64,000 bases of DNA from Defluviicoccus sp. Its GTDB lineage: Bacteria > Pseudomonadota > Alphaproteobacteria > MPNO01. Under the pieces are notes generated by a model. That model saw nothing but the letters and a program-made list of their open reading frames with translations, was not told where the DNA came from and searched no databases. The first letter of the stretch is position 1. Each line of letters opens with the position of its first letter. Below, piece by piece: positions 11,365 to 34,366 of this stretch. Both the position numbers and the translations under genes were made by a program. Location: the NCBI GenBank assembly GCA_028821395.1, contig JAPPGP010000186.1, positions 1-64,000 on the forward strand. The letters are read 5' to 3'.

Positions 11365-12092
11365 TCACCGGCGCCGCGCAGGGAATCGGCGCGGCCTTCG
11401 CCCGCGCGATGGCGGCGGAGGGAGCGAAGATCGCCATCGCCGACCTCGACTCCGGACAGTCCGTGGTGGACGAGCTGAAGGCCGGCGGCGCCGAGGCCAT
11501 CGACGTGCCCACCGACGTCGCCGACGAGGAGTCCTGCAAGGCGATGGTCGCGCGCACGGCGGAGGCGTTCGGCGGGCTCGACATCGTCGTCAACAACGCC
11601 GCCGTGTTCACCGCGGTGCAGCGCAAGCCCTTCGACGAGATCACCGTCGAGGAGTGGGACAAGGTGCTTGCCGTCAACGCCAAGGGAGTCTGGCTCTGCT
11701 GCAAGGCGGCGGCGCCGGAGATGCGCAAGAAGCAATACGGCAAGATCGTCTCGATCTGCACCGGGCGGATCTTCAAGGGCGCGCCCTTCTTCCTGCATTA
11801 CGACGCGTCCAAAGCCGCGGTGCTCGGCATCACCCGCTCGCTCGCCCGCGAGCTCGGCGACGACAATATCTGCGTCAACGCCATCGCCCCGGGCTCGACG
11901 ATGTCGGAGAACGTTCTGAAGCGCACCAACTGGATGGGCGGCGGGCCGGAACGCACGCGCGCGACAAGGGCGATCAAGCAGGACGAGACGCCCGAGGATC
12001 TGGTCGGCGCCTGCATCTATCTCGCGTCCGCCGACAGCGACTTCGTCACGGGCCAGACCATCGTCGTCGATGGCGGCTCGGCCATGTGGTAG
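11334..12092 (+). CDS. SDR family oxidoreductase
   Basis: A 252-residue classical short-chain dehydrogenase. The cofactor motif TGAAQGIG is at residues 12-19, NNAA at 87-90 and YDASK at 156-160. The residue 13 before the catalytic Tyr, usually Ser, is Thr143, so a hydroxyl is kept. Asp37 after the second strand suggests NAD preference. Start ATG at 11334 follows AGGAGGGAG and lies inside the end of UbiD copy 1. The gene ends directly before UbiD copy 2, so all four genes form one operon. It probably oxidises or reduces an alcohol/ketone intermediate of the same pathway. Confidence 0.9.
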   Translation: MGRLDGRVAIVTGAAQGIGAAFARAMAAEGAKIAIADLDSGQSVVDELKAGGAEAIDVPTDVADEESCKAMVARTAEAFGGLDIVVNNAAVFTAVQRKPFDEITVEEWDKVLAVNAKGVWLCCKAAAPEMRKKQYGKIVSICTGRIFKGAPFFLHYDASKAAVLGITRSLARELGDDNICVNAIAPGSTMSENVLKRTNWMGGGPERTRATRAIKQDETPEDLVGACIYLASADSDFVTGQTIVVDGGSAMW

Positions 12093-13745: not shown

Positions 13746-15372
13746 GCGCGGCTATCCCGACCTGCACGACCACATCGCCGCGCTGGACGAGGCCGGGCTG
13801 CTGGTCCGCGTCGACCGCGAGATCAACAAGGACACCGAGATGCACCCGCTGGTCCGCTGGCAATTTCGCGGCGGCATCCCGGAGCCCGAGCGCAAGGCGT
13901 TCCTGTTCACCAACGTGGTGGATTCGCGGGGCCGCCGCTACGACATCCCGGTGATCGTCGGCGGGCTGGCGGCGAGCCGGGAGATCTACCGCCGCGGCAT
14001 CGGCTGCGAGCTTGAGCAGATCGAGGAACGCTGGGCGGAGGCGATCGCCAACCCGATCCCGCCGCGCGAGATCGCGGACGCGCCGTGCCACGAGCTGGTG
14101 TTTACCGGCGAGGCGTTGAATGCCGCGGGCAACGCGCTCGACGGTATCCCGGTGCCGATCTCGACCCCGGGCTGGGACAACGCGCCCTATACGACGCTGT
14201 CGCAATACATCACCCGGGATCCCGACACCGGCATCCAGAACATGGGCAACTATCGCGGCCAGGTGAAGGCGCCGCGCCGTCTCGGCATGAACCCCTCGCT
14301 CGAGCTGCGGCCCGGGATCTACGCCCATTGGCAGAAATACCGGGCGCGCGGCGAGCCCATGCCGGCGGCCGTGGTGCTCGGCGCGCCGCCCTGCGTCACC
14401 TTCACCTCGACGCTGAAATTGCCGGAGACGGTCTGCGAGTTCGACATCGCGGGCGGGCTGGTGGGCCACCCGCTGAACGTGGTCAGGGCCAGGACTGTGG
14501 ACCTGCTGGTCCCGGCGGAGGCCGAGATCGTCGTCGAGGGGTTCATCGACACCGAGTACCTGGAGCCCGAGGCGCCGTTCGGCGAGAGCCACGGCCACGT
14601 GAACTTGCAGGAGTTCAACGCCTTCATGGACGTGACCGCGGTGACCCGGCGGCGGAATGCGGTGCTGACCTCGATCGTCAGCCAGGTGACGCCGTCCGAA
14701 TCGAGCACCATAAAGCGGGTGGCGATGGAGCCCCTCTTCCTCGCCCATCTCAGGGACGCGCTCGGCATCAAGGGGGTGCTCCGGGTCGGCATGCACGAGC
14801 CGCTGACCAATATCCGCAAGGTGATCGTGGTCCAGGTCGAGCGCGAGACGCCGCGCACCGAGATCTGGCGCGCGCTCTACGGCGCGGCATCGCTGCACCG
14901 CGCGGCCGGGAAGTACGTGATCGCGGTCAACGAGGACATCGACCCGGACAACGCCGATGCGCTGTTCTGGGCGATGGCCTACCGCGCCAACCCCGCTCTC
15001 GACCTCGAAGTACTGGGCCACCGCGACCAGGGCCACGGCCCGCGCAGCCTGCGCAACGACGGCGAGGATGCGAGCGTGCTGATCGACGCGACGCTGAAGG
15101 AGGATTTCCCGCCGATCTCGCTGCCCAAGCGCGAGTTCATGGAGAACGCAAGGGAAATCTGGGAGGAGCTCGGCCTGCCGCCGATCAAGCCGGAGACGCC
15201 GTGGCACGGCTACAGCCTCGGCGAGTGGTCCGACGAGTTCGATCGCGCGGCCGAGCTGGCGACGCAGGGGGATTACTTCGAGACCGGCCGCATCATCGCC
15301 CAGCGGCGGCGCAAGGACGTGGAGATGAACACCGAGGTGCGCCGGGTGAAAGGGGAAGGCGAACGCGGCTAG
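13738..15372 (+). CDS. UbiD family decarboxylase, copy 3
   Basis: A 544-residue UbiD paralog, closer to copy 1 than to copy 2 by eye (shared WDNAPYTT, NIQNMGNYRG-like and VNLQEFN/VNLQEYN segments). Active-site motif PEAPFGESHGHV retained. Its start overlaps the end of copy 2 (ATGTCTGA). It closes the operon; palindromic repeats begin about 50 bases after its stop. UbiD and UbiD-like proteins sometimes work as multi-subunit enzymes, so copies 1-3 could be subunits rather than separate enzymes. Confidence 0.92.
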   Translation: MSERGYPDLHDHIAALDEAGLLVRVDREINKDTEMHPLVRWQFRGGIPEPERKAFLFTNVVDSRGRRYDIPVIVGGLAASREIYRRGIGCELEQIEERWAEAIANPIPPREIADAPCHELVFTGEALNAAGNALDGIPVPISTPGWDNAPYTTLSQYITRDPDTGIQNMGNYRGQVKAPRRLGMNPSLELRPGIYAHWQKYRARGEPMPAAVVLGAPPCVTFTSTLKLPETVCEFDIAGGLVGHPLNVVRARTVDLLVPAEAEIVVEGFIDTEYLEPEAPFGESHGHVNLQEFNAFMDVTAVTRRRNAVLTSIVSQVTPSESSTIKRVAMEPLFLAHLRDALGIKGVLRVGMHEPLTNIRKVIVVQVERETPRTEIWRALYGAASLHRAAGKYVIAVNEDIDPDNADALFWAMAYRANPALDLEVLGHRDQGHGPRSLRNDGEDASVLIDATLKEDFPPISLPKREFMENAREIWEELGLPPIKPETPWHGYSLGEWSDEFDRAAELATQGDYFETGRIIAQRRRKDVEMNTEVRRVKGEGERG

Positions 15373-15420
15373 CGTTCCAATCGAGAAGCTCTTGTCCATT
15401 CGCACAACGCCCCCACCACG

Positions 15421-15512
15421 TCATGGCCGGACTTGATCCGGCCATCCATCCGCTTGCCCGGCGACGGGCGGACCTTGCGGAGAGAGATGCCCGGATCAAG
15501 TCCGGGCATGAC
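15421..15512. repeat. Composite palindromic repeat, inverted orientation
   Basis: Two palindromes about 40 bases apart: 15423-15445 (arms ATGGCCGGA and TCCGGCCAT) and 15487-15509 (arms ATGCCCGGA and TCCGGGCAT). They lie in the 306-base gap between UbiD copy 3 and the hydroxyacid dehydrogenase. The rest of the gap shows no gene. The GGCC-type arm comes first here, the reverse of the copies near 28 kb and 59 kb. Confidence 0.85.
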
Positions 15513-15678
15513 ATGCGAGGGGAAAGGCGCGGCCAGAGAGACCGCAAACCGGCCCGACCACGGCGAGTGAACTGTGGAAGGGGGCTATCAGGCGGCCCAG
15601 TCCCGTGCTGCCGCCGCTGGACAAGGCCGGCGCCGCGCGGCTAGACCCTGTGCGACACGTCCGGCCCGGGAGGAGCGA

Positions 15679-16761
15679 TTGGCTGACTTCGCGACACTGC
15701 ACGAGATCGTCGCCGCCGCGCGCGGCAACCTGTCGGATGGCGCGTGGGACTATCTGACCGGCGGCGCCGAGACCGAGACCTCGCTGCTGCGCAACCGGCT
15801 GGGGCTCGATTCGATCGCGTTCAGGCCGCGCGTGCTCAACGACGTGAGCGCCATCGACCTCTCGGGGACGATCGCCGGTCACGCGGTGCGGCTCCCCGTG
15901 TCGCTCGCGCCGATGGGCTCGCTCGAGCTCCTCCATCCCGACGGCTCGATGGCGGTCGCGAGGGCGGCGGAGGCCTTCGGCACCGTCTCATATCTGAGCT
16001 CGGTGACCCATCCCGGATTGGAAGCCGTCGCCAAGGGCACCGGCCATCCGAAGGTGTACCAGCTCTACGTCCGCGGCGGCCGCGATTCGGTCGCCGAAGT
16101 TGCGAAGCAAGCGATGTCCGCCGGCTACACCGCTTTCTGCCTCACCGTCGACGTGGCCGTCTATTCGCGCCGCGAGCGCGACCTGATCAAGCGCTACGTG
16201 CCGACCGCGCGCCGTTCGGCCAGCGGCGAAGGAATGGAGTACCAGGCCAGGCTCGACTGGGATCTGGTCAAGTGGTTCAAGGACTCCTTCGACATCCCGC
16301 TCCAGATCAAGGGGGTCGCGACGGCCGAGGACGCGGCGCTCTGCATCGAGCACGGCGTCGACACGGTCTACGTCTCGAACCACGGCGGGCGGCAGCTCGA
16401 CCACGGAAGGGCGACCATCGACATGCTCCCGGAGGTGGTTGAAGCGGTCGGCGGCCAGGCGGAGATCGTCGTCGACGGCGGCTTCATGCGCGGCGCCGAC
16501 ATCGTCAAGGCGATCGCCCGGGGGGCCGATTCGGTCGCTATCGGCAAGCTGCAGGGCTTCGGCCTCGCCGCCGCCGGCATGACCGGGATCGTCCGCGTCC
16601 TCGAGCTCCTGGAAGAGGAGATGCGCATCTCCATGGGGCTGATGGGCCTCACCCGGCTCGACCGGCTCGACGGGAGCTTCCTCCACCCCGCCCCGCCGGT
16701 GCGCGAACCCTCGGTATTGTCCGCCTTTCCCTTTCTCACCCTCAGGTCACCGGAGTATTGA
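15679..16761 (+). CDS. FMN-dependent alpha-hydroxy-acid dehydrogenase/oxidase
   Basis: A 360-residue protein of the lactate/mandelate/glycolate oxidase family, which oxidises 2-hydroxyacids to 2-oxoacids with FMN in a TIM barrel. It shows LAPMGSLELLHPDG, SRRERDL, and the active-site motif YVSNHGGRQLDHG with the catalytic His and Arg. I chose TTG at 15679, preceded by GGGAGGAG, over ATG 15574. From that point it aligns with the paralog at 18778-19854 (DFATLHEIV against RFETTHEIV), and the upstream 35 codons are low complexity. The TPP enzyme starts 3 bases after its stop, so the two steps are likely consecutive. Confidence 0.88.
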   Translation: MADFATLHEIVAAARGNLSDGAWDYLTGGAETETSLLRNRLGLDSIAFRPRVLNDVSAIDLSGTIAGHAVRLPVSLAPMGSLELLHPDGSMAVARAAEAFGTVSYLSSVTHPGLEAVAKGTGHPKVYQLYVRGGRDSVAEVAKQAMSAGYTAFCLTVDVAVYSRRERDLIKRYVPTARRSASGEGMEYQARLDWDLVKWFKDSFDIPLQIKGVATAEDAALCIEHGVDTVYVSNHGGRQLDHGRATIDMLPEVVEAVGGQAEIVVDGGFMRGADIVKAIARGADSVAIGKLQGFGLAAAGMTGIVRVLELLEEEMRISMGLMGLTRLDRLDGSFLHPAPPVREPSVLSAFPFLTLRSPEY

Positions 16762-16764
16762 GCG

Positions 16765-18567
16765 ATGAACATGCTGCAATTCGACCGCCCGGAGCTCGGC
16801 GGCAACCGCCAGATGGAATGGACCAGCGACGTCGCGGCCGAGATGCTGCGCCGGCTCGGCATCAAGTACGTCTCGCTCAACCCGGGCGCCAGCTATCGCG
16901 GGTTCCACGATTCGATCGTGAACTATCTCGGCAACGAAGACCCGCAGATGCTGCTCTGCCTGCACGAGGACCACGCGGTCTCGATCGCCCATGGCTACGC
17001 CAAGGTGACCGACGAGCCGATGGGGGCGATCGTCCATTCCAATGTCGGGCTGATGCACGGTCTGATGGCGATGTTCAACGCCTGGTGCGACCGTGCGCCG
17101 GTCTATGTCATGGGCGCGACCGGGCCGGTCGATGCGCCCTTGCGCAGGCCGTGGATCGACTGGATCCACACCGCCAAGGACCAGGGCATGATGCTCAGGA
17201 ATTTCGTCAAGTGGGACGACGAGCCGCGCTCGGCGGAAGCGATCGTCGAGACCATGCTGCGCGCAGGCATCATGGCGAAGACGCCGCCCCGCGGCCCGGT
17301 CTATATCTGCCTCGACGCGGGGCTCCAGGAGACCAGGCTCGCCGGCGAGGTGACGATCCCGGACGCCGCGCGCTTCGAGGCGCCGGAGACGCCGCACGCC
17401 TCCTCCGACGCGGTGGCCCGGGCGGCGGACACGCTGGTCGCCGCCGAGCGCCCGGTGATGATGGTCGGGCGGGTCTCGCGCAGCCGGGCGGGCTGGGATT
17501 GCCGCGTTCGTCTCGCCGAGATGCTGGGCGCGCGCGTGGTGACCGACCTCAAGACGTCCGCTTCCTTCCCGACCGGCCACCCGCTGCACGCCGGCCCGCC
17601 GTCGAACTGGGTGCGCGGCCCGGGCGAGGACCTCGTGCGCGAGGCGGACGCGCTTCTCGTGCTCGACTGGATCGACCTCGCCGGCACCTTCAAGGCGCTC
17701 GGCCTCGGATACGGGGTCGAGGCGCGGGTGATCGACGTGACGCTCGACTCCTACGTCCATAACGGCTGGTCGATGGACCATTTCGGGCTGGCCGTCGGCG
17801 ACCAGCGCCTGCTCGCGGATCCGGACGCGTTCGCGGCCCAGCTCCTCGCCGCGGTCGAGGACAGGTTGGGCGGGCAGCCGAAATTCGCCGGCGGCGATCC
17901 GGTGCCGTTCGCCGAGCCGGAGGTCAAGGATTCGTCCGCGCCGATCGCGCCGCGCGACATCGCGGGCGCGCTCAACCGGGTCAAGGGGGAGAGGAAGATC
18001 ACCCTCACCCGGGTGCCGCTCGGCTGGGCCGGCGATTCGTACCACTTCGCCGAGCCGCTCGATTACCTTGGCAACGATGGCGGCGGCGGGCTGGGCTCCG
18101 GCCCCGGCAACGCCATCGGGGCCGGGCTCGCGCTGATGGAATCGGGTCGGGTGCCGGTCGCGATCCTCGGCGACGGCGACTTCATGCAGGGCGGCTCGGC
18201 GCTCTGGACCGCCGCGCATTACAAAATCCCGGTGCTGTTCGTGGTGTCCAACAACCGGTCCAACTTCAACGACGAGGTCCATCAGGAGGCCATGGCGAAG
18301 GAGCGCAACCGGCCGGTGGAGAACCGCTGGATCGGCCAGCGCATCGACGACCCGGCGATCGACCTCGCCGGCTATGCGCGGTCCCAGGGCGTCGACGCGG
18401 CGGGCCCGGTCGAGACCGCGGGCGCGCTGCCGGCGGCGCTCGATGCCGCGATTGCGGCGGTCGAAAGCGGCAAGCCCTTCCTGCTCGACGTCGTGGTCCA
18501 GCCGGGCTACAGCGCGCCGATGGTGACCCGCGCGAGCGGCGAAGCGTCCACCGGCACGGCGAGCTGA
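16765..18567 (+). CDS. Thiamine pyrophosphate-dependent enzyme (acetolactate synthase/benzoylformate decarboxylase-like)
   Basis: A 600-residue TPP enzyme. The N-terminal PYR domain has the activating Glu in CLHEDHAVSIAHGYAK, the middle domain is Rossmann-like, and the C-terminal PP domain carries GDGDFMQGG through VVSNN for Mg-TPP binding. Family members decarboxylate or carboligate 2-oxoacids. It directly follows an FMN 2-hydroxyacid dehydrogenase, an order that recalls mandelate to benzoylformate to benzaldehyde, so a 2-oxoacid decarboxylase role is a fair inference. No small regulatory subunit gene is present, which argues against true acetolactate synthase. Confidence 0.88.
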   Translation: MNMLQFDRPELGGNRQMEWTSDVAAEMLRRLGIKYVSLNPGASYRGFHDSIVNYLGNEDPQMLLCLHEDHAVSIAHGYAKVTDEPMGAIVHSNVGLMHGLMAMFNAWCDRAPVYVMGATGPVDAPLRRPWIDWIHTAKDQGMMLRNFVKWDDEPRSAEAIVETMLRAGIMAKTPPRGPVYICLDAGLQETRLAGEVTIPDAARFEAPETPHASSDAVARAADTLVAAERPVMMVGRVSRSRAGWDCRVRLAEMLGARVVTDLKTSASFPTGHPLHAGPPSNWVRGPGEDLVREADALLVLDWIDLAGTFKALGLGYGVEARVIDVTLDSYVHNGWSMDHFGLAVGDQRLLADPDAFAAQLLAAVEDRLGGQPKFAGGDPVPFAEPEVKDSSAPIAPRDIAGALNRVKGERKITLTRVPLGWAGDSYHFAEPLDYLGNDGGGGLGSGPGNAIGAGLALMESGRVPVAILGDGDFMQGGSALWTAAHYKIPVLFVVSNNRSNFNDEVHQEAMAKERNRPVENRWIGQRIDDPAIDLAGYARSQGVDAAGPVETAGALPAALDAAIAAVESGKPFLLDVVVQPGYSAPMVTRASGEASTGTAS

Positions 18568-19917: not shown

Positions 19918-19946
19918 GATCCCACGCGGGCGCGGTGCGGAGAACC

Positions 19947-20753
19947 ATGGCCAATATTCTGGAGATTTCCGAGGTCTCCAAGACCTACGACGCCGACACG
20001 GAGAACCCGGTCCAGGCGCTCGACCGGGTCACGCTCGACGTGGCCCAGGGGGAGTTCGTCTCGGTGATCGGCCCGAGCGGCTGCGGCAAGTCGACCCTGT
20101 TCAACATCGTCGGCGGGCTGATCGGCCAGTACGAGGGCAGCGTGCGCATCGACGGGCGCCCGGTCGACGGCGCGCATCGCGATGTCGGCGTCGTGTTCCA
20201 GGAGGAATCGACCTTTCCCTGGCGCACCACGCTCGACAACGTCGCCTTCCCGCTCGAGGTCCAGGGCATGGCCAAGGGCGAGCGCGAGGAAAAGGCGCGG
20301 AAATTCGTCAGCCTGGTCGGTCTCGAAGGGTTCGAGAACCACTACCCGGCGCAGCTCTCGGGCGGGATGAAGCAGCGCACGGCGGTGGCGCGGACGCTCG
20401 CCTACGAGCCGCGCATCATGCTGCTCGACGAGCCGTTCGGCGCGCTCGACGAGCAGACGCGCATGCTGCTCGGCGACAAGATGCTGGAGATCTGGGCGGC
20501 GCTCAACCAGACCATGCTGCTGATCACCCACAACATCACCGAGGCGGTGCAGCTGTCCGACCGGGTGGTGGTGATGTCGTTCCGCCCTGGCAAGATCAAG
20601 GAAGTCATCTCGGTCGACCTGCCGCGTCCGCGCTCCTCGGAGGTGATTTCGACGCCCAGATTCGGCGAGTATGTCGGCCGGCTGTGGACTCTGCTGCGCG
20701 AGGAGGCATCGCGCGGCATGGTCGAGGCCGAAGCCCGGCTCGCCGCGGGGTAG
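19947..20753 (+). CDS. NitT/TauT-type ABC transporter ATP-binding protein
   Basis: A 268-residue ABC ATPase. Walker A is GPSGCGKST near residue 45, signature LSGGMKQR near 137, Walker B IMLLDEPFGALD, and the H-loop is LLITHNIT. The FPWRT Q-loop region and the overall length match the SsuB/TauB/nitrate group that imports sulfonates, nitrate, pyrimidine precursors or aromatic acids. Start ATG 19947 was preferred over GTG 19935. It is the first gene of the ABC set; the binding protein and two permeases follow. Confidence 0.93.
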   Translation: MANILEISEVSKTYDADTENPVQALDRVTLDVAQGEFVSVIGPSGCGKSTLFNIVGGLIGQYEGSVRIDGRPVDGAHRDVGVVFQEESTFPWRTTLDNVAFPLEVQGMAKGEREEKARKFVSLVGLEGFENHYPAQLSGGMKQRTAVARTLAYEPRIMLLDEPFGALDEQTRMLLGDKMLEIWAALNQTMLLITHNITEAVQLSDRVVVMSFRPGKIKEVISVDLPRPRSSEVISTPRFGEYVGRLWTLLREEASRGMVEAEARLAAG

Positions 20754-20813
20754 GGGAGGTTTCGCACGCGGCTTTCGGATAGACTGCCGCGGCTTCAAGT
20801 CAGGAGGGAACCA

Positions 20814-21779
20814 ATGGCTCGATATGTGAAGACGGCGGCGCTCGCCGTCATGGCGGCTGCGGTGGTTGCCGCGCCCGCTTCCGCGCTCGACAAGATCCGC
20901 ATGGTCAACAGCACCAAGGTGGTGTTCGAGACCGAGCATCCATACTCCGCCAAGGAGAACGGGATCTTCGAGAAATACGGGCTCGACGTCTCGATCATCC
21001 ACGGCTCGGGCGGCGCGGCGTCGCTCCAGGCGGTGATCACCGGGAGCCAGGACGTGGTCTGGGGCAACGGCGTGCTCGGCGTGGTCTCCGCCTACTCCAA
21101 GGGCGCGCCGGTCCGCGTGCTGGGCAGCAACATCCGGGGCGTGCCCGACCTCTACTGGTATGTGAAGACCGACAGCCCGATCAAGAGCTTCAAGGACCTC
21201 AAGGCGAGCGACGAGTTCGTCTATTCCAGGCCCGGCTCGACCACCAACCTCGCCGTCCTGTTCATCAAGGAGGCGCTCAACATCCCGGCCAAGGCGGTGT
21301 CGGTCGGCGGGCCGTCGGGCTCGCGCACCCAGCTGATGTCGGGGCAAGTCGCCACCGGCTGGTCGGTCTTCCCGCTCAACAAGGGGCTGGTACGCGAGAA
21401 GAAGATCCGCATCATCGGCACCGGAGCGGCGGCCGCCGCGCTGACCGGCACCACCATCCGGGTGATCGCGGCCAACGTGAACTGGCTCGAGAAGAACCGC
21501 GACGCGGCCAAGCGCCTGATGGCGGCGCTGATGGAGGGCCAGGCGCGCAGCTATACGAGCGACGAGCAGCTCCAGGCCTATGCCAAGCGCTGGAAGCTCA
21601 ACTACGAGGACATCAAGACGGCGCCGATGGATACGCCGCTCGCGCTGTCGACCTTCCTGCCGGTCTCCGGGCTCGACAACATCAACCGGATCGCGCTCAA
21701 GGAGAAGAAGATCAAGAAGCTGCTCACCGCGGAGCAGCTCAAGGAGCTGGTGCACCCGATGGGCAACAAGCCGATCTAG
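20814..21779 (+). CDS. ABC transporter substrate-binding protein (NitT/TauT family)
   Basis: A 321-residue periplasmic binding protein with a signal peptide (AALAVMAAAVVAAPASA, cleavage about residue 24). The mature protein has the two-lobe NMT1/SsuA-like pattern: EKYGLDVSIIHGSGGAASLQA early, then DLYWYVKTDSPIKSFKDLK, then a SRPGSTTN ligand-loop. A GGAGG ribosome site lies just before the ATG. The ligand is unknown, but the downstream genes for a Rieske protein and amidohydrolase suggest an aromatic or amide compound. Confidence 0.9.
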   Translation: MARYVKTAALAVMAAAVVAAPASALDKIRMVNSTKVVFETEHPYSAKENGIFEKYGLDVSIIHGSGGAASLQAVITGSQDVVWGNGVLGVVSAYSKGAPVRVLGSNIRGVPDLYWYVKTDSPIKSFKDLKASDEFVYSRPGSTTNLAVLFIKEALNIPAKAVSVGGPSGSRTQLMSGQVATGWSVFPLNKGLVREKKIRIIGTGAAAAALTGTTIRVIAANVNWLEKNRDAAKRLMAALMEGQARSYTSDEQLQAYAKRWKLNYEDIKTAPMDTPLALSTFLPVSGLDNINRIALKEKKIKKLLTAEQLKELVHPMGNKPI

Positions 21780-21803
21780 CTCGCCGCCCACGGACGGCGC
21801 GGG

Positions 21804-22565
21804 ATGACGGGCTCGTTCAGGCTGTCGAAGTCGCCCGTCCTGGTCGGCGCCCTCGGGCTCGCGGCGTTCCTCTGCGTGCTCGAGATCGCGGTCGAGACCG
21901 GGATGGTGATGGAGCTCGTCGTCCCGCGCCCGTCCGACACGTTTCTCGCCTTCCCGCCGGTCCAGGAGGACATGGACCTGGTCGGAAATTTTTTCGTCAC
22001 GCTCGGCATGACCGCGGCGTCGACGGCGATCGCGCTCTCCATCGGCGTGCCGTTCGGCTATTTCCTCTACCGCAACCGGCGCTACGGCATCGCCTATGAG
22101 GGCTGGCTCGCCGCCGCCTTCGCCGCGCCGACGGTGCTGCTCTTCCCGCTGTTCCTGGTGATCTTCGGGCGCACCTACCTGACGCTGATCATGATGGGCT
22201 TCATCCCGGGTGCGATCCCCATCATAATCCAGACGCGCCAGGGGCTGCTCGGCGTGTCCCAGACGCTGCTCAATGTCGGGCGGAGCTTCAACCTCTCCGA
22301 GCGCGAGATGTTCTGGAAGATCCAGCTTCCGAGCGCGGTGCCGACCATCTTCACGGGCATCCGCATCGGGGTGATGTATACTCTCGTCAACATCGTCGCG
22401 ATCGAGTACCTGGTCGATTTCGGCGGGCTGGGGCGGATCGTCTCGGAGATGTATTTCCGTTTCGACACGCCCGGCACCTATGCCAGCATCGTCGCGGTGA
22501 TCCTGGTCAGCGTGTTCTTCTACTGGGGCTTCGGGAGGATCGAGAAGTGGCTCAGGCCGGTGTAG
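21804..22565 (+). CDS. ABC transporter permease (NitT/TauT family), first
   Basis: A 253-residue inner-membrane permease with about six helices. The EAA-type cytoplasmic loop that contacts the ATPase is near VGRSFNLSEREMFWKIQLPSA. It starts 25 bases after the binding-protein gene and overlaps the next permease by 19 bases. Two different permeases with one ATPase suggest a heterodimeric channel. Confidence 0.9.
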   Translation: MTGSFRLSKSPVLVGALGLAAFLCVLEIAVETGMVMELVVPRPSDTFLAFPPVQEDMDLVGNFFVTLGMTAASTAIALSIGVPFGYFLYRNRRYGIAYEGWLAAAFAAPTVLLFPLFLVIFGRTYLTLIMMGFIPGAIPIIIQTRQGLLGVSQTLLNVGRSFNLSEREMFWKIQLPSAVPTIFTGIRIGVMYTLVNIVAIEYLVDFGGLGRIVSEMYFRFDTPGTYASIVAVILVSVFFYWGFGRIEKWLRPV

Positions 22566-23392
22566 TCGGAACCGCGGCGCCTGCGCTGACCGGCGGCCGC
22601 GAGGCCACGGTGTTCCGCATCCGCGTCCTCACCGTGATCTGCCTGCTCGCGGCATGGGAAGGGCTCGCCGCGCTCGGGACCCTCGAAATCCTCTACGGCG
22701 ACGTGATCCCTTCGTCGTGGAAGATCGCGCTGGCGGTATGGGGCGAGGTCACGGCGGCGGATTTCTATCGCGACCTCGGCATCACCTTCGCCGAGCACAT
22801 CGTCGGCTTCGTCGTGGGGTCCGCGATCGCGCTTGCGCTCGGCATCGCCATGGGCGTGAACCCGCTGCTGCGCAAGGCGATCGAGCCCTATCTCAACGCC
22901 ATCGGCTCGACGCCCAAGATCATCTTCCTGCCGATCCTGTTCCTGATCTTCGGCACCGGCATCGATTCCAAGATGGCCAAGGGCGCGCTGTCGGCGTTCT
23001 TCCCGGTGGTGTTCTCCACCGCGCTCGGCATGATCCTGATCAACCCGGTGCTGCTCCGGGTCGGCAAGTCGTTCAACCTCAGCCGCTGGCAGACGGTGAT
23101 CAAGATCTACATCCCGGCGATGGTGAACCCGGTCATCACCGGGCTCCGGCTGGGCATGGCGATCACCGTCATCGGCGTGCTGGTCGCCGAGCTCAAATTC
23201 GCCGACGGCGGGCTGGGCTACCGGCTGGGGAACTACTACGAGCAGTTCAAGATCGGCGAGATGTACGCGATCATCCTCATCATCTTCGCGCTCGCCGCGC
23301 TCGCGAACATGGGCATGACGCGGCTGCAGGCCTACGCCAACCGGCATCAGGGCGGGACCGGGGCGCACAGCCTCTCGGTCGCCACCAACTGA
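22547..23392 (+). CDS. ABC transporter permease (NitT/TauT family), second
   Basis: A 281-residue permease with GTG start at 22547 inside the end of the first permease gene. The EAA-type loop is VGKSFNLSRWQTVIKIYIPA near residue 185, and about six hydrophobic helices are visible. It shares the VGxSFNLS segment with its partner, so the two are old paralogs. Translational coupling through the overlap is likely. Confidence 0.9.
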   Translation: MAQAGVVGTAAPALTGGREATVFRIRVLTVICLLAAWEGLAALGTLEILYGDVIPSSWKIALAVWGEVTAADFYRDLGITFAEHIVGFVVGSAIALALGIAMGVNPLLRKAIEPYLNAIGSTPKIIFLPILFLIFGTGIDSKMAKGALSAFFPVVFSTALGMILINPVLLRVGKSFNLSRWQTVIKIYIPAMVNPVITGLRLGMAITVIGVLVAELKFADGGLGYRLGNYYEQFKIGEMYAIILIIFALAALANMGMTRLQAYANRHQGGTGAHSLSVATN

Positions 23393-23427: not shown

Positions 23428-23796
23428 ATGGCAAAGGAGATCTTTGTCGCCAAGTCCGGAGACCTGCCCGACGGCGAGCGCAAGATCGTTCCCAACGGCA
23501 ATTCGGAGATCGGCGTCTACCGGGTGAAGGGGCGGCTCTACGCCTACCAGAATCTGTGCGCCCACCAGGGCGGGCCGGCCTGCGAGGGGTTGCTGATGGC
23601 CAAGGTCGAGGAGGTCATCGCCGAGGACAAGACCTATCGGGGCATGCGCTTCAACCACGACGAGATGCACATCGTCTGCCCCTGGCACGGCTGGGAATAC
23701 GATCTCGAGACCGGCGTGATGGTCGCCGACAGGACCTTCCGCCTGAGGAAATACGACGTCGTCGAGAAGGAGGACGGCATCTATGTCCTCGCCTGA
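23428..23796 (+). CDS. Rieske [2Fe-2S] ferredoxin-like protein with a long cluster loop
   Basis: A 122-residue soluble Rieske protein. Cluster ligands are visible as CAH (about residue 43) and CPWH (about 83). The ligand pairs are separated by about 37 residues, against about 15-17 in common Rieske ferredoxins. The extra segment contains KVEEVIAEDKTYRGMRF. Ferredoxins of this type carry electrons to oxygenases, yet no oxygenase alpha subunit is nearby. Start ATG 23428 follows GAGAGGAGACGG. It overlaps the next gene by 14 bases, so the two are co-translated. Confidence 0.87.
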   Translation: MAKEIFVAKSGDLPDGERKIVPNGNSEIGVYRVKGRLYAYQNLCAHQGGPACEGLLMAKVEEVIAEDKTYRGMRFNHDEMHIVCPWHGWEYDLETGVMVADRTFRLRKYDVVEKEDGIYVLA

Positions 23797-24109
23797 GCAG
23801 CCGGCGGACGAGTTCGGCGACCTGCTCGCCGATGTCGGCGAGGAGACGGCCAGGCTCCAGGCATTCGCCGCCAAGATGCTCGAGCTCAAGGAGGGCGACG
23901 AGCCGCCCGACGCGCTGATCCAGGAGGGACTCACCGCGCTGACCAAGCTGTATACGGTCAAGTTCCAAATCGGCGAGCGCTGGTCGCCCTTCGTCGACGA
24001 CCGCGCGATGCCGGCGACGGCCGTGATGATCATGTGCACCGCGATGCTGCGCGCGGTGAATGTCGAGCTGTTCGAGCTCGGCATGTGGCAAGCCTGGTCG
24101 GGCGCCTGA
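23783..24109 (+). CDS. Unknown 108-aa helical protein in the Rieske-amidohydrolase operon
   Basis: I do not recognise this protein. It is 108 residues, acidic at the N-terminus (DEFGDLLADVGEETARLQ) and probably all helical. A conserved-looking patch is KLYTVKFQIGERWSPFVDD, followed by a hydrophobic helix (TAVMIMCTAMLRAVNVELFE) that could be a buried core or a weak membrane contact. It has no signal peptide and no metal motif. Its start lies inside the Rieske gene and the amidohydrolase starts 12 bases after it, so it is probably a small subunit or chaperone of one of these. Confidence 0.7.
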   Translation: MSSPEQPADEFGDLLADVGEETARLQAFAAKMLELKEGDEPPDALIQEGLTALTKLYTVKFQIGERWSPFVDDRAMPATAVMIMCTAMLRAVNVELFELGMWQAWSGA

Positions 24110-24121
24110 CGGAGACGGGAA

Positions 24122-25360
24122 ATGGATATTCCGACAAGCGACATCCACAAGATGAGCGTCGAGGAGTTCGACACCAAGAAGCTCCTCCTCAACGCCGCCA
24201 GGCAGCGCGACCGGCGCAAGCTGGAGGACGTGCTGATCGTCGATGTCGACTGCCACCACTACGAGAACGAGTCGCTGCGCGACATCATCCAGTACATCGA
24301 GGACCCGGTGATCAAGCAGACCGGGCTGGTCTATTCCGGCAGCGGCACCGGCGCGCAGTCCCCGCTGATTCCGGGCGTGGTCGGCTACCAGGACATCTCC
24401 GGCCGGGTGATGCGCTACCCGCTGCGCAAGCTGGAGCAGACGCCGGCCGACGGCACCCACCGCGACATCCACCTGTCGCTCAAGTGGATGGACGCGATGG
24501 GGGTCGACTACGTCTCCATGTTCCCGACGCCGATGCTGCTCTTGGGCCTGCACCCGCAGCCCGAGATCGAGGTCGCGATGTCGCGCGCCTACAACCGATG
24601 GCTGGTGGAGCAGATCCTGCCGCAGAACGAGCGCATCACCTCGATGCTCTATCTGCCGTTCAACGATCCCGAAGCCAGCTACAAGATGGTGCGGGAGTTC
24701 GGCGACAAGCCGGGCGTGGTGGGCTTTTCGGTGGTGTCGACGCGCTACAAGCCGGTCTATGACAACGCCTACATGAAGACCTACCGGCTGATGGAGGAGA
24801 TGGGCAAGCCGCTCGCCTTCCACGCCTCCTACAACTGGAACGACCCGCTGCTCGGCGCGACCAACCGGTTCCTGATCACCCACGCGATGGGCTTCACCAT
24901 CTACAACGCCATGCACTGCGCCAACTGGGTGATCAACGGCCTGCCGGAGCGTTTCCCCGGGCTTAAGGTGATCTGGATCGAATCCGGGCTCGCCTGGGTC
25001 CCGTGGCTCATGCAGCGTCTCGACAACGACTACCGGATGCGGAGCTCCGAGGCGCCGTCGCTGAAGAAGCTGCCGAGCGAGTACATGCAGGACATGTACT
25101 ACTCGTCGCAGCCGATGGAGCTCCCCAACGACCTCGACGTTCTCGAAATGACGTTCAAGATGATCAAGGCCGAGACCCAGCTCTGCTGGTGTTCCGACTA
25201 CCCGCACTGGGACATGGACCTGCCGAGCGTGATCTACGACCTGCCCTTCCTCGACGAGACGGCGAAGCGCAACATTTTGGGCGAGAACGCGCGCAAGCTG
25301 TTCAACCTCGACGTCTCCGGGCGCTTCCCCGACTACCGGCCGCCGGGCGGCAGCGCGTGA
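24122..25360 (+). CDS. Amidohydrolase family protein (amidohydrolase_2, ACMSD-like)
   Basis: A 412-residue protein of the amidohydrolase_2 superfamily. This TIM-barrel group includes aminocarboxymuconate-semialdehyde decarboxylase and resorcylate decarboxylases. Visible landmarks are the first-strand motif IVDVDCHHYEN in place of the common HxH, a middle FHASYNW, and a C-terminal CWCSDYPHWDMDLP with the conserved Asp. Either hydrolysis or non-oxidative decarboxylation is possible. It follows the Rieske and unknown genes by 12 bases and overlaps the MmgE/PrpD start (GTGA). Confidence 0.85.
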   Translation: MDIPTSDIHKMSVEEFDTKKLLLNAARQRDRRKLEDVLIVDVDCHHYENESLRDIIQYIEDPVIKQTGLVYSGSGTGAQSPLIPGVVGYQDISGRVMRYPLRKLEQTPADGTHRDIHLSLKWMDAMGVDYVSMFPTPMLLLGLHPQPEIEVAMSRAYNRWLVEQILPQNERITSMLYLPFNDPEASYKMVREFGDKPGVVGFSVVSTRYKPVYDNAYMKTYRLMEEMGKPLAFHASYNWNDPLLGATNRFLITHAMGFTIYNAMHCANWVINGLPERFPGLKVIWIESGLAWVPWLMQRLDNDYRMRSSEAPSLKKLPSEYMQDMYYSSQPMELPNDLDVLEMTFKMIKAETQLCWCSDYPHWDMDLPSVIYDLPFLDETAKRNILGENARKLFNLDVSGRFPDYRPPGGSA

Positions 25361-26676
25361 GCACCGCCGCGCAGGCAGCCTCGATCGAGCCCGCGGCCCA
25401 GCCGACGCTGACCGAAGGTCTCGTCTCGCTGATTCGCGCGAGGCCGATCTCGCGAGCCGATCTCGACGCGATGGCGTCGATCGCGCTCGACGGGATCGCC
25501 AACATGCTGGCCGGGCGGGCGACCGAACCGGGGCGCATCCTGCGGCGCTGGGGCGCGGAGAAACGGGACCCCGGACGCCGCGCGCTGGTGATGGGCGGCT
25601 GCATGCACGTCCTGGAGGTCGACGACCTGCATCGCGGCTCGGTCACCCATCCGGGATGCGTCGTCATCCCCGCCGCGCTGGCGCTCGCCGACAGCGAAGG
25701 AGCGGACGGGGAGGCCTTTCTGCGCGCGGTGCTGCACGGCTTCGAAGCGGTCTGCCGGGTCGGCATGTCGGTCGGCCCGACGCATTACAAGGTCTGGCAC
25801 AACACCGCGACCTGCGGGCCGTTCGGCGCGGCGATGGCGGCCGCTTCGCTGATCGGGCTGGACGACGAGGCGGTCGTCCATGCGCTCGGCAACGCCGGCA
25901 CGCAATCCGCCGGGCTCTGGGAGTTCCTCAACACGGGCGCGATGAGCAAGCACCTCCATGCCGGGCGCGCGGCCGAAGCCGGTGTCGTCGCGGCGGAGCT
26001 CGCCGCGGGCGGCTTCACCGGGCCGCCGGCGATCCTCGAAGGACCGCAGGGCCTCTACGCCGGCGCCTGTCCCGATGCGGACCCGGGAGCGGTGCTGCGC
26101 CACCCGGATGCGCCGTGGGCCGTGCATGCCACCTCGATCAAGCCCTGGCCGTCCTGCCGGCATACCCACCCGGTCATCGATGCCGCGCTCGAGCTGTCCG
26201 CCCGCATCGACGCGGCCGCGGTGACGGGCGTCGAGGCATCGACCTACCGGGCGGCGGTCGATGTGTGCGACCGGCCGATGCCGGCATCGCCCTATGAAGC
26301 CAAGTTCTCGCTCCAGCACTGCATCGCCGCGGCGCTCACCGACGGCGCGGTGGGCTTCGAGACCTTCGAGGCCGAATCGCGCGCCCGCCTCGCCGCGCTG
26401 CGCTCCAGGGTAAGGGTGGGCGCGGGGACGCCTTACGTGACGGATTATCCCGCCGCGTGGGGCGGCGAGGTGACGGCGATCCTCGCCGACGGCAGCCGCG
26501 CGAGCGCCGCCCGGCGGCAGTGCAAGGGCGATCCCGAGGCCGCGCTCGACCGCGGTGAAATGGCGGACAAGGCGCGCGAGCTGTTGCGCTTCGGCCGGGT
26601 CGCCGAGCCCGAGGCCGTCATCGACGGCGTGCTCGCCATGGCCGGCGGCGGGACGGTGCCCGCCTTCGATATCTGA
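25357..26676 (+). CDS. MmgE/PrpD family protein
   Basis: A 439-residue member of the MmgE/PrpD family, which includes 2-methylcitrate dehydratase and cis-aconitate decarboxylase. Typical blocks are HVLEVDDLHRGSVTHPG near residue 85, HNTATCGPFGAAMAAA, MSKHLHAGRAAEAG and SIKPWPSCRHTHPVIDA. It differs from the true PrpD at 30808. Start is GTG at 25357, overlapping the amidohydrolase stop by 4 bases. It may dehydrate or decarboxylate a small polycarboxylate in this pathway. Confidence 0.87.
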   Translation: MSTAAQAASIEPAAQPTLTEGLVSLIRARPISRADLDAMASIALDGIANMLAGRATEPGRILRRWGAEKRDPGRRALVMGGCMHVLEVDDLHRGSVTHPGCVVIPAALALADSEGADGEAFLRAVLHGFEAVCRVGMSVGPTHYKVWHNTATCGPFGAAMAAASLIGLDDEAVVHALGNAGTQSAGLWEFLNTGAMSKHLHAGRAAEAGVVAAELAAGGFTGPPAILEGPQGLYAGACPDADPGAVLRHPDAPWAVHATSIKPWPSCRHTHPVIDAALELSARIDAAAVTGVEASTYRAAVDVCDRPMPASPYEAKFSLQHCIAAALTDGAVGFETFEAESRARLAALRSRVRVGAGTPYVTDYPAAWGGEVTAILADGSRASAARRQCKGDPEAALDRGEMADKARELLRFGRVAEPEAVIDGVLAMAGGGTVPAFDI

Positions 26677-26687
26677 GGGGACGGACG

Positions 26688-27524
26688 ATGGCGGATGCCC
26701 GACAGGTGGCGAAGGCCGAAGCCTTCAGGGCGCTCCATCGCGGGCCCGAACCGCTGGTCCTGGTCAACGCCTCCGATGCGTCGATCGCGCGCATCGTCGT
26801 CGAGGCCGGCCATCCCGCCATCGCCACATCGAGCGCCGGAATCGCCTGGCTGATGGGCTATGCCGACGGCGAGAACATCCCGCGCGAGGAGATGCTCTGG
26901 ATGGTGCGGCGCATCGCCGAGCGCGTGGACGTGCCGGTGACGGCCGACATGGAGGCGGGCTACGGGACCGAGCCCGAGGCCGTCGCCGACACCGTGCGGG
27001 CGACGATCGAGGCGGGCGCGGTCGGGATGAATATCGAGGACGGCACGATCCGCTCGTCCGAGCCGCTGCTCGATTTCGACCTCGCGGTGGCGCGGATCGC
27101 TTCCGGGCGCGAGGCGGCCGACGAAACCGGCGTGCCGGCCGTGCTCAACGCGCGCTGCGACGTGTTCCTGCGCGGCGGCAAGGGGCCCGAGGCGCTGGAA
27201 GAAGCGATCCGCCGCTGCAACGCCTTCCGCGAGGCGGGCGCGGATTGCCTGTTCGTCCCCTTCGCGCGGGATGCGGACACCATAGGCGCGCTGGTCGAGG
27301 GCATCGACGGGCCGGTGAACATCCTGGCGAGCGCGGTCTCGCCGCCGCTCGCGGAGCTCAAGCGGCTCGGCGTCGCCCGGGTCAGCATCGGCGGGCTGCT
27401 CTCGCTCGCCTTCGCCACGCTGGCGCGCAGTGCCGCGGCCGAGCTCGCCGCCGCCGGCACCTACGGCTTCGCCGAGGGCGTCATCCTGCATCCCGAGATG
27501 AACGCCCTTATGGCGAACGAGTAA
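26688..27524 (+). CDS. Isocitrate lyase/PEP mutase superfamily protein
   Basis: A 278-residue (beta/alpha)8 enzyme of the ICL/PEP mutase superfamily. The Mg-binding segment VTADMEAGYG, the glycine-rich IEDGTIRSS segment and NARCDVFLRGG are visible. It lacks the KKCGH/KRCGH lyase motif of isocitrate and methylisocitrate lyases, so a C-C lyase or hydrolase of the carboxyphosphonoenolpyruvate/oxaloacetase type is more likely than ICL. It starts 12 bases after the MmgE/PrpD gene. Confidence 0.82.
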   Translation: MADARQVAKAEAFRALHRGPEPLVLVNASDASIARIVVEAGHPAIATSSAGIAWLMGYADGENIPREEMLWMVRRIAERVDVPVTADMEAGYGTEPEAVADTVRATIEAGAVGMNIEDGTIRSSEPLLDFDLAVARIASGREAADETGVPAVLNARCDVFLRGGKGPEALEEAIRRCNAFREAGADCLFVPFARDADTIGALVEGIDGPVNILASAVSPPLAELKRLGVARVSIGGLLSLAFATLARSAAAELAAAGTYGFAEGVILHPEMNALMANE

Positions 27525-29999: not shown

Positions 30000-30652
30000 G
30001 TCTCGATGAGCTCGTCCACGAACACGGTGTATTTCTGCAATTTGGGCTTGTCCGCGTCCGCCGGGTCGACATAGCGGATCGAGCTCTTGCCCTTGAGCCG
30101 GCGCGGCAGGATCATCACCCGCGAGAAATGACCCGGCGCGTCGTCTGGCGCCCAGGCATAGACCGGGTCGGTGCCGGCCTCGAACCAGGCGTCGTATTCG
30201 CCGAGCTCGGTGGTCTCGCCATGCACCCGGACGTTGAACCCGCCCTTCAGCAGGCAGCGTATGCCGCCGCCCTGGTGGGTGTGGGTGTAGGCGATGCCGC
30301 CGGGCGGCAGCTCGACCTTGTCGCAGCGCAGCAGGTACCCCTCCGGATCGTCGAGCCGGAGCGTCGCTTCGAGCTTGCGCTCCGACCTCACGCCGGCGCC
30401 GGCCGGAACGCTTTCCCCGGGATCGAGCTCGTAGCGCAGCAGGCAGGCCCCCTGGCCGCTTGCGGCGATGGTCATGGGGCCGGTGTGAAACAGCGCCGAG
30501 TTCGCCGACAGCGTCGCCGTCCCGCCGCCGGCGCGGATCGAGACCATGCCGACGGCCACGTAGACCGCCCGGGTCGCCGGCGGCAGCGCCGCGTCGAGGG
30601 CGGCATTCGCACCGAAATCGTCTCGCGAGAGACGGAGCAGATGATCCGGCAT
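29996..30652 (-). CDS. Cupin domain protein
   Basis: A 218-residue protein with a single cupin fold. The metal-motif region is [20 protein letters not shown] (about residue 130), preceded by LPPGGIA, and followed by a [18 protein letters not shown] segment. Start ATG 30652 follows GGGAGC; the longer ORF to 30739 has no support. Its last bases overlap the ATG of the TPP gene (ATGA type). It may process the aldehyde or keto product of that enzyme, but this rests only on linkage. Confidence 0.8.
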
Positions 30653-30744
30653 CGAAGCTCCCGATGTCGCGCGCTCGTCACGCAAGGCGGCGCGGCTACC
30701 TAAACACACCCTCCGGTCGGCCACAACATGCGGTGCCAACGCGA

Positions 30745-30773
30745 TTGGACCCGGTCTCGCAGCGGAGTATTAT
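30745..30773 (+). promoter_or_regulatory. Candidate promoter of prpDBC
   Basis: TTGGAC and TATTAT are 17 bases apart, in the divergent region between the cupin and prpD. The -10 match is good and the -35 is weak. The predicted transcript would begin near the palindrome at 30781. Confidence 0.4.
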
Positions 30774-30780
30774 TCCCTAT

Positions 30781-30791
30781 CTGCTAAGCAG
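30781..30791. promoter_or_regulatory. Palindrome in the prpD leader, possible operator
   Basis: CTGCTAAGCAG is a perfect 5+1+5 palindrome immediately downstream of the predicted -10 and 16 bases before the prpD GTG. Its position suits a repressor site. No prp regulator gene is adjacent. Confidence 0.3.
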
Positions 30792-30807
30792 GATCGGAGT
30801 CGATAAC

Positions 30808-32319
30808 GTGACTATCAATCATACGGTTAAGGTTTATCCTTCGAAGACTGCTTTAGCCCGTGAAGACCAGCTCGCGTGGAAAATCGCGGCCGTCGCGACC
30901 GATCCTGTCGAGGTCGAGCCGGCGGTGGTCGACATGGCGGTCAACCGGATCGTCGACAACGCGGCGGTCGCGGTCGCGGCCCTAAACCGGGGGCCGGTCG
31001 CCGCCGCACGCGCCCAGGCGCTCGCCCATCCGCGCGACGGCGGAGCGGCGGTGTTTGGCATCTCCGCCGACCGCCGCTTCGCCGCCGAGTGGGCTGCCTG
31101 GGCGAACGGGACGGCGGTTCGAGAGCTCGACTTCCACGATACCTTCCTCGCCGCGGACTATTCCCATCCGGGCGACAACATCCCGGCGCTCCTCGCGGTT
31201 GCGCAGCAGACGGGGCGCGGCGGCGAGGATCTGGTGCGCGGCATCGCCACCGCCTACGAGATCCAGATCGACCTGGTGAAGGGGATCTGCCTGCACGCCC
31301 ACAAGATCGACCACATCGCCCATCTCGGGCCGTCCGCCGCGGCCGGGCTCGGCACGCTGCTGGGGCTCCCGACCGAAACCGTCTTCCAGGCGGTGCAGCA
31401 GGCGCTGCACACCTCGGTGAGCACGCGGCAATCGCGCAAGGGCGAGATTTCGAGCTGGAAGGCGTTCGCCCCGGCGCATGCCGGCAAGCTCGCCATCGAG
31501 GCGGTCGACCGGGCGATGCGGGGGGAGGGCGCGCCGTCGCCGATCTACGAGGGCGAGGACAGCGTCGTCGCCCGGGTGCTCGACGGGCCGGATGCCGAGT
31601 ACACCGTGCCGCTGCCCGCCCCGGGCGAGGCCAAGCGCGCGATCCTCGAATCCTACACCAAGGAGCACTCGGCCGAGTACCAGAGCCAGGCGATCATCGA
31701 CCTCGCCTTCCGCATGCGGGAGAAGATCGCCGACTTCGAGGAAATCGAGCGCCTGGTGCTGCACACCAGCCACCACACGCATTACGTGATCGGGACCGGC
31801 GCGGGCGATCCCCAAAAGATGGACCCCGGGGCGAGCCGCGAGACCCTCGACCACAGCATCATGTACATCCTGGCCGTGGCCCTGCAAGACGGCGAATGGC
31901 ACCACATCCGCTCCTACGCGCCGGAACGCGCCGCGCGTCCCGACACGGTTCGGCTGTGGCACAAGATCTCGACCGTCGAGGACCCGGAATGGACCGCGCG
32001 CTATCACGAGCCGGACCCCAACCGGCGCGCCTTCGGCGGCAGGCTCGAGATCGAGCTCAAATCGGGCGAGACCATCGTCGACGAGCTCGCCGTCGCCAAC
32101 GCCCATTCGGCCGGCGCGCGGCCCTTCGCGCGGGCCGACTACGTGCGCAAGTTCGAGACCCTGGCGGACGGCATCGCCGCGCCGGACGAGCAGCACCGCT
32201 TCCTCGAGCTGGTCCAGCGCCTGCCGGATCTCGGACCGGAAGATCTCGGCGGTCTCAACGTGGCCGTCGATCCCGCGGGCCTGGTCAACGCCGAGCGCGA
32301 CGACAGGGGGATTTTCTGA
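30808..32319 (+). CDS. prpD: 2-methylcitrate dehydratase PrpD
   Basis: A 503-residue PrpD, which dehydrates 2-methylcitrate to 2-methyl-cis-aconitate in propionate breakdown. The PrpD signature [20 protein letters not shown] is complete, and [19 protein letters not shown] and [14 protein letters not shown] follow. Length fits family members (about 480-500). Start is GTG 30808 with GGAG upstream; the ORF extension to 30460 is noise. Its TGA overlaps the prpB ATG. The order prpD-prpB-prpC supports the call, although prpE and a regulator are absent here. Confidence 0.93.
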
Positions 32320-33238: not shown

Positions 33239-34366
33239 ATGGCCGAGCCGCAGATCCAGAAGGGCCTCGCCGGGGTGACGGTGGACACCACCGCGATCTC
33301 CAAGGTGGTGCCGGAGACCAACTCGCTCACCTATCGCGGATACGCGGTGCAGGAGCTTTGCGCCGAGGCCTCGTTCGAGGAGGTCGCCTGGCTACTGTGG
33401 CGCGGCGAGCTGCCCACCGCCGATGAGCTCGACCGCTTCAAGGCCGAGGAGGCGAAGCGGCGCGAGCTCTCGGACGACCATATCGAGGTGATCCGCCGTA
33501 TTCCGTCCAACGCCCATCCCATGGACGCGCTGCGCACGGCGGTGAGCTATCTCGGCACCATGGAGAGCGCCTGGGGCGGCGAGCCGGAGCTCGCCGACCG
33601 CGACCGCGCGCTCGACCTGCTGGCCAAGATCCCGACGATGATCGCGACGGACTTCCGGTTCCGCACCGGCGCATTGCGGATCGCGCCGCGCGAGGACCTG
33701 TCGCTGGTCGAGAACTTCTTCAACATGTGCTTCAACAAGGTGCCGCCGCCCGAGGTCATCAAGGCCTTCGACACCTCGATGATCCTCTATGCCGAGCACA
33801 GCTTCAACGCGTCCACCTTCACCGTTCGCACCATCGCATCCAGCCTCTCGGATATCTTCTCCGCGGTCACCGGCGGCATCGGCTCGCTCAAGGGCCCGCT
33901 GCATGGCGGCGCCAACGAGGCGGTGATGAAGATGTTCCTCGAAATCGGCGACCCCGAGATCGCCGAGGAGTGGATGCGCGAGGCCATCGCCCGCAAGAGG
34001 CTGGTGATGGGGTTCGGCCACCGGGTCTACAAATCGGGCGATTCCCGCGTGCCGACCATGCGCCGCTGCCTCGAGGACCTCGCCGCCTGGAAGGGCGACG
34101 ACACCTGGATCCGCATGTCCGACGGGCTGCAGAGGGTGATGATCGAGGAGAAGGGGATCTACCCCAACCTCGATTTTCCCGCCGGCCCGTCCTACTACAT
34201 GATGGGCTTCGAGATCGAGATGTTCACGCCGATCTTCGTCATGAGCCGGATCACCGGCTGGACGGCGCATTATCTCGAACAGAACCTCGACAACCGGCTG
34301 ATCCGCCCGCTCAGCGCCTATAACGGCGTGGCGCAGCGCCCGGTGCCGCCGATCGGCGAACGCTGA
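33239..34366 (+). CDS. prpC: 2-methylcitrate synthase/citrate synthase family PrpC
   Basis: A 375-residue type of small citrate synthase. Active-site motifs are HGGANEAVMKM (His), GFGHRVYKSGDSR (His) and NLDFPAGPSYYMMG (Asp). Its location after prpD and prpB indicates condensation of propionyl-CoA with oxaloacetate. A GAAGGGAGG ribosome site precedes the ATG. It is convergent with the small gene at 34382, with only 15 bases between stops. Confidence 0.93.
   Translation: MAEPQIQKGLAGVTVDTTAISKVVPETNSLTYRGYAVQELCAEASFEEVAWLLWRGELPTADELDRFKAEEAKRRELSDDHIEVIRRIPSNAHPMDALRTAVSYLGTMESAWGGEPELADRDRALDLLAKIPTMIATDFRFRTGALRIAPREDLSLVENFFNMCFNKVPPPEVIKAFDTSMILYAEHSFNASTFTVRTIASSLSDIFSAVTGGIGSLKGPLHGGANEAVMKMFLEIGDPEIAEEWMREAIARKRLVMGFGHRVYKSGDSRVPTMRRCLEDLAAWKGDDTWIRMSDGLQRVMIEEKGIYPNLDFPAGPSYYMMGFEIEMFTPIFVMSRITGWTAHYLEQNLDNRLIRPLSAYNGVAQRPVPPIGER

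Follow-up and report, generated by a model that had tools for sequence, protein, structure and literature searches.

A Rieske protein, a small helical protein and an amidohydrolase-fold protein as the probable components of a monooxygenase in Defluviicoccus

Amidohydrolase-related dinuclear oxygenases (AROs) are recently described C–H hydroxylases, some of which use Mn and Fe; a partner set or a substrate is known for few of them. According to the Rittle group's report (PMC10811679), they were discovered through small Rieske genes located beside PF04909 genes, and four candidates from this Rieske/PF04909 pairing bound redox-active di-iron centres. The 2-aminoisobutyrate monooxygenase of Rhodococcus wratislaviensis, AibH1H2GF, is encoded in a catabolic operon with a transporter. 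Its PF04909 subunit AibH2 pairs with the mononuclear AibH1, the Rieske protein AibG is encoded in the adjoining position, and the reductase AibF belongs to the same operon. AibH1 is described as a non-catalytic partner with an unsettled exact task (PMC7782822, PMC10401708). The two metals of AibH2 are reported to be held by D25, H27, H211, E265, D337, and H340; D342 is a second-sphere residue (PMC7782822, PMC12141560). AibH1H2 is stated to need Mn and SfbO to prefer Mn/Fe (PMC10401708, PMC10811679). PtmU3, from platensimycin biosynthesis, is an amidohydrolase-fold di-iron hydroxylase with corresponding ligands, and no auxiliary mononuclear protein is reported for it (PMC10401708).

The window analysed here, a stretch of 64,000 nucleotides of Defluviicoccus sp. 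DNA, contains a tight cluster of three forward-strand genes, the products of which we call R, S, and H. R (23428–23796) is a Rieske protein of 122 aa (Pfam Rieske, E = 2.8e-14), S (23783–24109) is a helical protein of 108 aa, and H (24122–25360) is a 412-aa Amidohydro_2 (PF04909) protein. The R and S genes overlap by 14 nt and H starts 12 bases after S, in agreement with the preliminary description of this locus. At its 3' end, H overlaps by 4 nt (GTGA) the gene of an MmgE/PrpD family protein (25357–26676, forward strand), whose GTG start lies inside the H stop. A PEP mutase/isocitrate lyase superfamily protein follows on the same strand (26688–27524). Four forward-strand ABC transporter genes (19935–23392) are located directly upstream of R, confirming the reported position of the trio downstream of a NitT/TauT transporter. 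They encode an ATPase of the NitT/TauT/SsuB type (19935–20753), a substrate-binding protein of the NMT1/SsuA type (20814–21779), and two permeases, both ORFs assigned from their place in the cluster (21804–22565 and 22547–23392), the second of which ends 35 bases before R. The transporter probably imports the substrate of H.

A phmmer search of the PDB with H places all six distinct ARO hydroxylase sequences at the top of the list, in the order 8sm7 (E = 2.5e-39), SfbO (8sm6), 8sm9, AibH2 (6m1w_B), 8sm8, and PtmU3 (2e-15). AibH1 and then the decarboxylases give far weaker matches, the latter at 4e-8 or worse. The first 21 Foldseek matches of the AF2 model of H are likewise chains of ARO entries, the model being of middling quality (pLDDT 76, pTM 0.81) and poor at the ligand loop 361–364. 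H shares with its best matches, SfbO and the further AROs in PDB entries 8SM6–8SM9, a nearby Rieske gene and the DxH and DYPH.D motifs. Its identity to the characterised AROs is only ~20–25%, and the reaction may differ.

The counterparts in H of the AibH2 site are D43, H45, H234, E287, D359, and H362, with D364 in the second sphere. The match of D43 and H45 to AibH2 D25 and H27 was made via 8sm6 and 8sm7, the AibH2 N-terminus being unaligned in the PDB search. The predicted dinuclear ligand set of H thus comprises three histidines and three carboxylates plus the second-sphere acid, and all seven residues are kept without exception in its clade (S-type H; 79 of 79 distinct sequences). An acid in the place of D364 is, according to PMC7782822, conserved in dinuclear superfamily members only. 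The preliminary description had termed H an amidohydrolase with DVDCHHYE in place of HxH, and the motif D41-V-D43-C-H45-H-Y-E indeed stands where HxH is expected; the hydrolase role does not hold, as AROs lead by both sequence and fold and the dinuclear ligands are complete. Because the full AibH2 ligand set is invariant in H, we read DVDCH as the D-x-H ligand pair of AROs and not as a degenerate hydrolase motif. H lacks the HxH of mononuclear ACMSD-type enzymes, having DxH and a dinuclear ligand set instead. It combines a PF04909 fold closest to AibH2, SfbO, and PtmU3 with the full set of ligands and a small Rieske gene in the operon. Judged by these features, H is very probably an O2-using two-metal ARO enzyme fed electrons by R, and not a hydrolase. 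The earlier statement that no oxygenase alpha subunit is present is thus misleading, since H itself is the likely oxygenase.

S is present in 26 of the 27 genomes of the host's order and in 3 of 299 sampled across the phylum. Among 385 alphaproteobacterial genomes, where S-type H was defined by an HMM score above 450, S and S-type H occur in exactly the same 17. The genomes sampled were chosen by kinship, and a common ancestry underlies both the tree and the contingency counts. Because S-type H genes form a single clade (FastTree support 0.93), the association between S and H is partly one of shared descent. In the 385-genome sample, 24 of 25 S genes adjoin an S-type H gene, the exception being genome G336, where R-S lies ~6 kb from H. 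Over all loci, R and S both lie close to 69 of the 80 distinct S-type H genes, 11 have neither, and none has one alone; G336 is counted among the 11, its S lying outside the stretch that was read. Both S-type loci found in the Burkholderiales sample carry S. The genes are found in the orders RSH (48), HRSH (11), HRS (4), RHS (2), HSR (1), and RSHH (1). The association persists while gene order varies, which speaks for a function in addition to shared descent. R, S, and H are one functional unit, as had been proposed, and the co-occurrence search suggested for the three families finds the trio recurring in other genomes. Eleven H paralogues, of which the host genome holds four, have no R and S beside them, so S may act in trans or be dispensable.

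The trio is also found on large plasmids of Sinorhizobium, Neorhizobium, Mesorhizobium, Phaeobacter, Salipiger, and Aminobacter. In one family of the order, several loci show an H-R-S-H layout in which both H loops are intact. Where S-type loci carry two H genes, both keep the second-sphere acid (DYPHWD or DWPHWD).

The Rieske ligands of R are arranged as CAH-X37-CPWH. Relative to the naphthalene dioxygenase ferredoxin (2qpz), ~21 residues are inserted (R 59–80 against 1 residue), which bears out the earlier observation of ligands about 37 residues apart, roughly 20 more than usual. In S-type loci the spacer is 36–38 residues long, against 37 for the Halobellus ARO pair and 32 for AibH1H2-type loci; on these sequences, the ~20-residue insertion is general to ARO-linked Rieske proteins (32–38 spacer) and not special to the window operon. 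R has the features of an AibG-type ferredoxin, namely a CxH-Xn-CxxH motif, an extended spacer, and an adjoining ARO gene. As a Rieske domain alone, it does not have the fused mononuclear-iron domain of a Rieske oxygenase alpha subunit. Because H has complete dinuclear ligands and groups with AibH2, SfbO, and PtmU3, R is best read as the electron donor of H. The Rieske centre had been given a redox or regulatory role with the hydrolase: a redox partnership with an amidohydrolase-fold protein stands, whereas regulation of a hydrolase falls away, H being an ARO by ligands, sequence, and fold.

Ka/Ks values of 0.14–0.22 against four close relatives indicate that S is a true gene. Homologues occur in several orders, so its restriction to the host genome, which would have spoken against the trio, is not observed. 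As had been noted, the protein is helical and unrecognised: its AF2 model has four helices (mean pLDDT 75), and S belongs to no Pfam or NCBIfam family, weak matches of single members being taken as chance. A profile search against PDB sequences gave no E-value under 0.19, and the best Foldseek match of the model to PDB folds reached only 0.94. S has neither a Pfam effector match nor a PDB fold match of the kind expected for a MmoB/TmoD effector, and the alignment of its members contains no recognisable active-site motif. Conservation is highest at the C-terminus, with F-[DE]-L-[GA]-M-W in most members and FELGMWQAW in the window. In those plasmid loci where S is annotated, it is labelled only a hypothetical protein. 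One S match was discarded as a chance match within a large unrelated protein. Residue 360 of H (Tyr or Trp) pairs perfectly with the C-terminal motif of S (52 and 22 cases, no crossings); this pairing was set aside as evidence of contact because one deep branch of the tree seems to account for the division in both.

Outside the clade, the AROs examined keep R and have no S, often with a second amidohydrolase of the AibH1 type in its stead, as observed for the Halobellus pair (R without S) and for AibH1H2-like H-H-R loci. The second-sphere acid is missing from the second amidohydrolase of the H-H-R loci (DYPHW[HQ]), as in AibH1, and such AibH1-like genes are seen only in the examined loci without S. 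The window operon resembles that of AibH1H2GF in its PF04909 protein with the same ligands, its adjoining Rieske gene, and its catabolic setting with a transporter. It differs in having one dinuclear H plus S, and neither a mononuclear second amidohydrolase nor a reductase gene, whereas no S is listed for AibH1H2GF. PtmU3, unlike H, is biosynthetic and acts on a CoA-linked substrate. The main text of PMC10811679 mentions no S-like component for SfbO and the 8SM6–8SM9 proteins, and S would be, by the text of the ARO papers, a third component without a counterpart in the related systems that have been studied. In outline, the set recalls soluble methane monooxygenase (sMMO) and toluene-4-monooxygenase (T4MO), with a hydroxylase, a Rieske ferredoxin (in T4MO), a reductase, and a small effector. 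This is an analogy only, as their hydroxylase is a four-helix bundle and H a TIM barrel, and S matches no effector family. The probable role of S is that of an auxiliary or effector subunit dedicated to this ARO clade, and on the simplest reading it was gained once and would have a role comparable to that of AibH1.

In two genomes, an NRAMP-family Mn2+/Fe2+ transporter gene directly adjoins the hydroxylase. In G851 (Burkholderiales), the order is reductase, MntH, H, S, R, and with 544 bits the transporter exceeds the cut-off (430) of the MntH model NF001923. In G378 (Alphaproteobacteria), R, S, and H are followed 6 bases downstream by a homologue of the G851 transporter. These NRAMP/MntH-type genes, found in two classes (L162:5908-7236 and L072:2703-4034), fit a Mn/Fe cofactor. 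The neighbourhood is suggestive because AibH1H2 needs Mn and SfbO prefers Mn/Fe, the two cases standing among several dozen loci. No ferredoxin reductase is encoded in the window operon. Candidates elsewhere in the host genome are three PF00175 (oxidoreductase NAD-binding) genes, one of which shares the contig of the window and lies ~11 kb past it. The G851 cluster includes a Fer2/NAD-binding reductase, and related genes are found near the Salipiger trio and that of genome G117.

Other families of the order keep a cluster composed of a thiamine-diphosphate-dependent (ThDP) enzyme (16765–18567, forward strand, in the window), the ABC transporter with all four of its genes, R-S-H, MmgE/PrpD, the PEP-mutase relative, and a second ThDP enzyme. 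Upstream, window positions 11133–16761 carry an SDR, two adjoining forward-strand UbiD-family decarboxylases (12093–13745 and 13738–15372), and an FMN-dependent dehydrogenase, suggesting decarboxylation of an aromatic or unsaturated acid in the same pathway. The Aminobacter trio adjoins a 4-hydroxybenzoate 3-monooxygenase and an aromatic-catabolism aldolase. The gene content makes catabolism of an imported organic acid the likely pathway, although the neighbours that point to it (UbiD, ThDP enzymes, FMN-dependent hydroxy-acid dehydrogenases, MmgE/PrpD, and the PEP-mutase-like lyase) single out no compound. A second ORF of the MmgE/PrpD family (30460–32319) and a citrate synthase (33239–34366) are located near the cluster.

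The host genome contains at least six S-type H genes against only two R-S pairs. A second, divergent R-S-H trio is complete on contig C265, with a DWPHWD loop in H and FDLAMWFRR at the end of S. Solitary S-type H genes are found on contigs C10, C82, C46, and C24, and those examined retain the metal ligands. Their neighbours include DctP/TctA-type transporter genes in one case, a UbiD decarboxylase with an aldehyde dehydrogenase in another, and a cytochrome P450 in a third. One R-S pair may serve several hydroxylases.

We consider it highly likely that R, S, and H form a multicomponent ARO-type monooxygenase, with H as the catalytic protein, R as its electron donor, and S as a dedicated auxiliary subunit. 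The analysis shows that H is homologous to AROs in sequence and fold and has all the ligands, that the trio is conserved, that H and S are strictly associated, and that the other AROs examined lack S; oxygenase activity, metal identity, electron flow, and the role of S are inferences. H would bind Mn/Fe or di-iron through its six ligands, activate O2, and hydroxylate a small organic substrate. R would take electrons from an NAD(P)H reductase whose gene lies elsewhere and deliver them singly to H. S would dock on H in the place taken by AibH1, as a structural partner or as a coupling or effector protein. That H is instead an ordinary hydrolase or decarboxylase of the ACMSD type, with R as its redox sensor or regulator, would agree with its Amidohydro_2 membership and its matches to decarboxylases. 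These matches are outranked by AROs in sequence and fold alike, and the invariant dinuclear set includes D364, the acid tied to dinuclear members in PMC7782822, making this explanation very improbable.

Among readings that keep H as a monooxygenase, S could lie outside the catalytic complex as a chaperone for metal insertion or Rieske assembly. The usual overlap of the S and R genes, the Mn/Fe importer at two loci, and the lack of a recognisable active-site motif in S would all suit such a role. We nevertheless regard it as unlikely, as the AROs examined outside the clade have Rieske partners without S, so that neither function needs S generally, and the conserved C-terminus of S, hydrophobic and Trp-containing, appears more usual for docking than for metal transfer. 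6-Hydroxypicolinate 3-monooxygenase, PicB, is a four-component enzyme. It is doubtful that S belongs to such a known enzyme, for example as one of the PicB1–B4 subunits: picB1–B4 encode PicB, and among the Pic proteins PicB2 shows the lowest conservation, with 47% similarity (PMC10142695), but the Burkholderiales sample yielded no recognisable pic cluster.

With S as a dedicated subunit of the monooxygenase, this operon type adds to the AROs a third component that is undescribed in the text of the ARO papers and strictly tied to one clade. The trio tells which proteins to co-express for an active enzyme, and the loci with a manganese importer make the metal question testable. The misleading annotation as amidohydrolase is corrected for a gene present at least six times in the host genome. 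It is an evenly balanced proposition that S founds a new family, a small helical replacement of AibH1 that an entire clade of Mn/Fe monooxygenases needs; these enzymes would then be a distinct three-component class of dinuclear oxygenases, near-universal in one alphaproteobacterial order.
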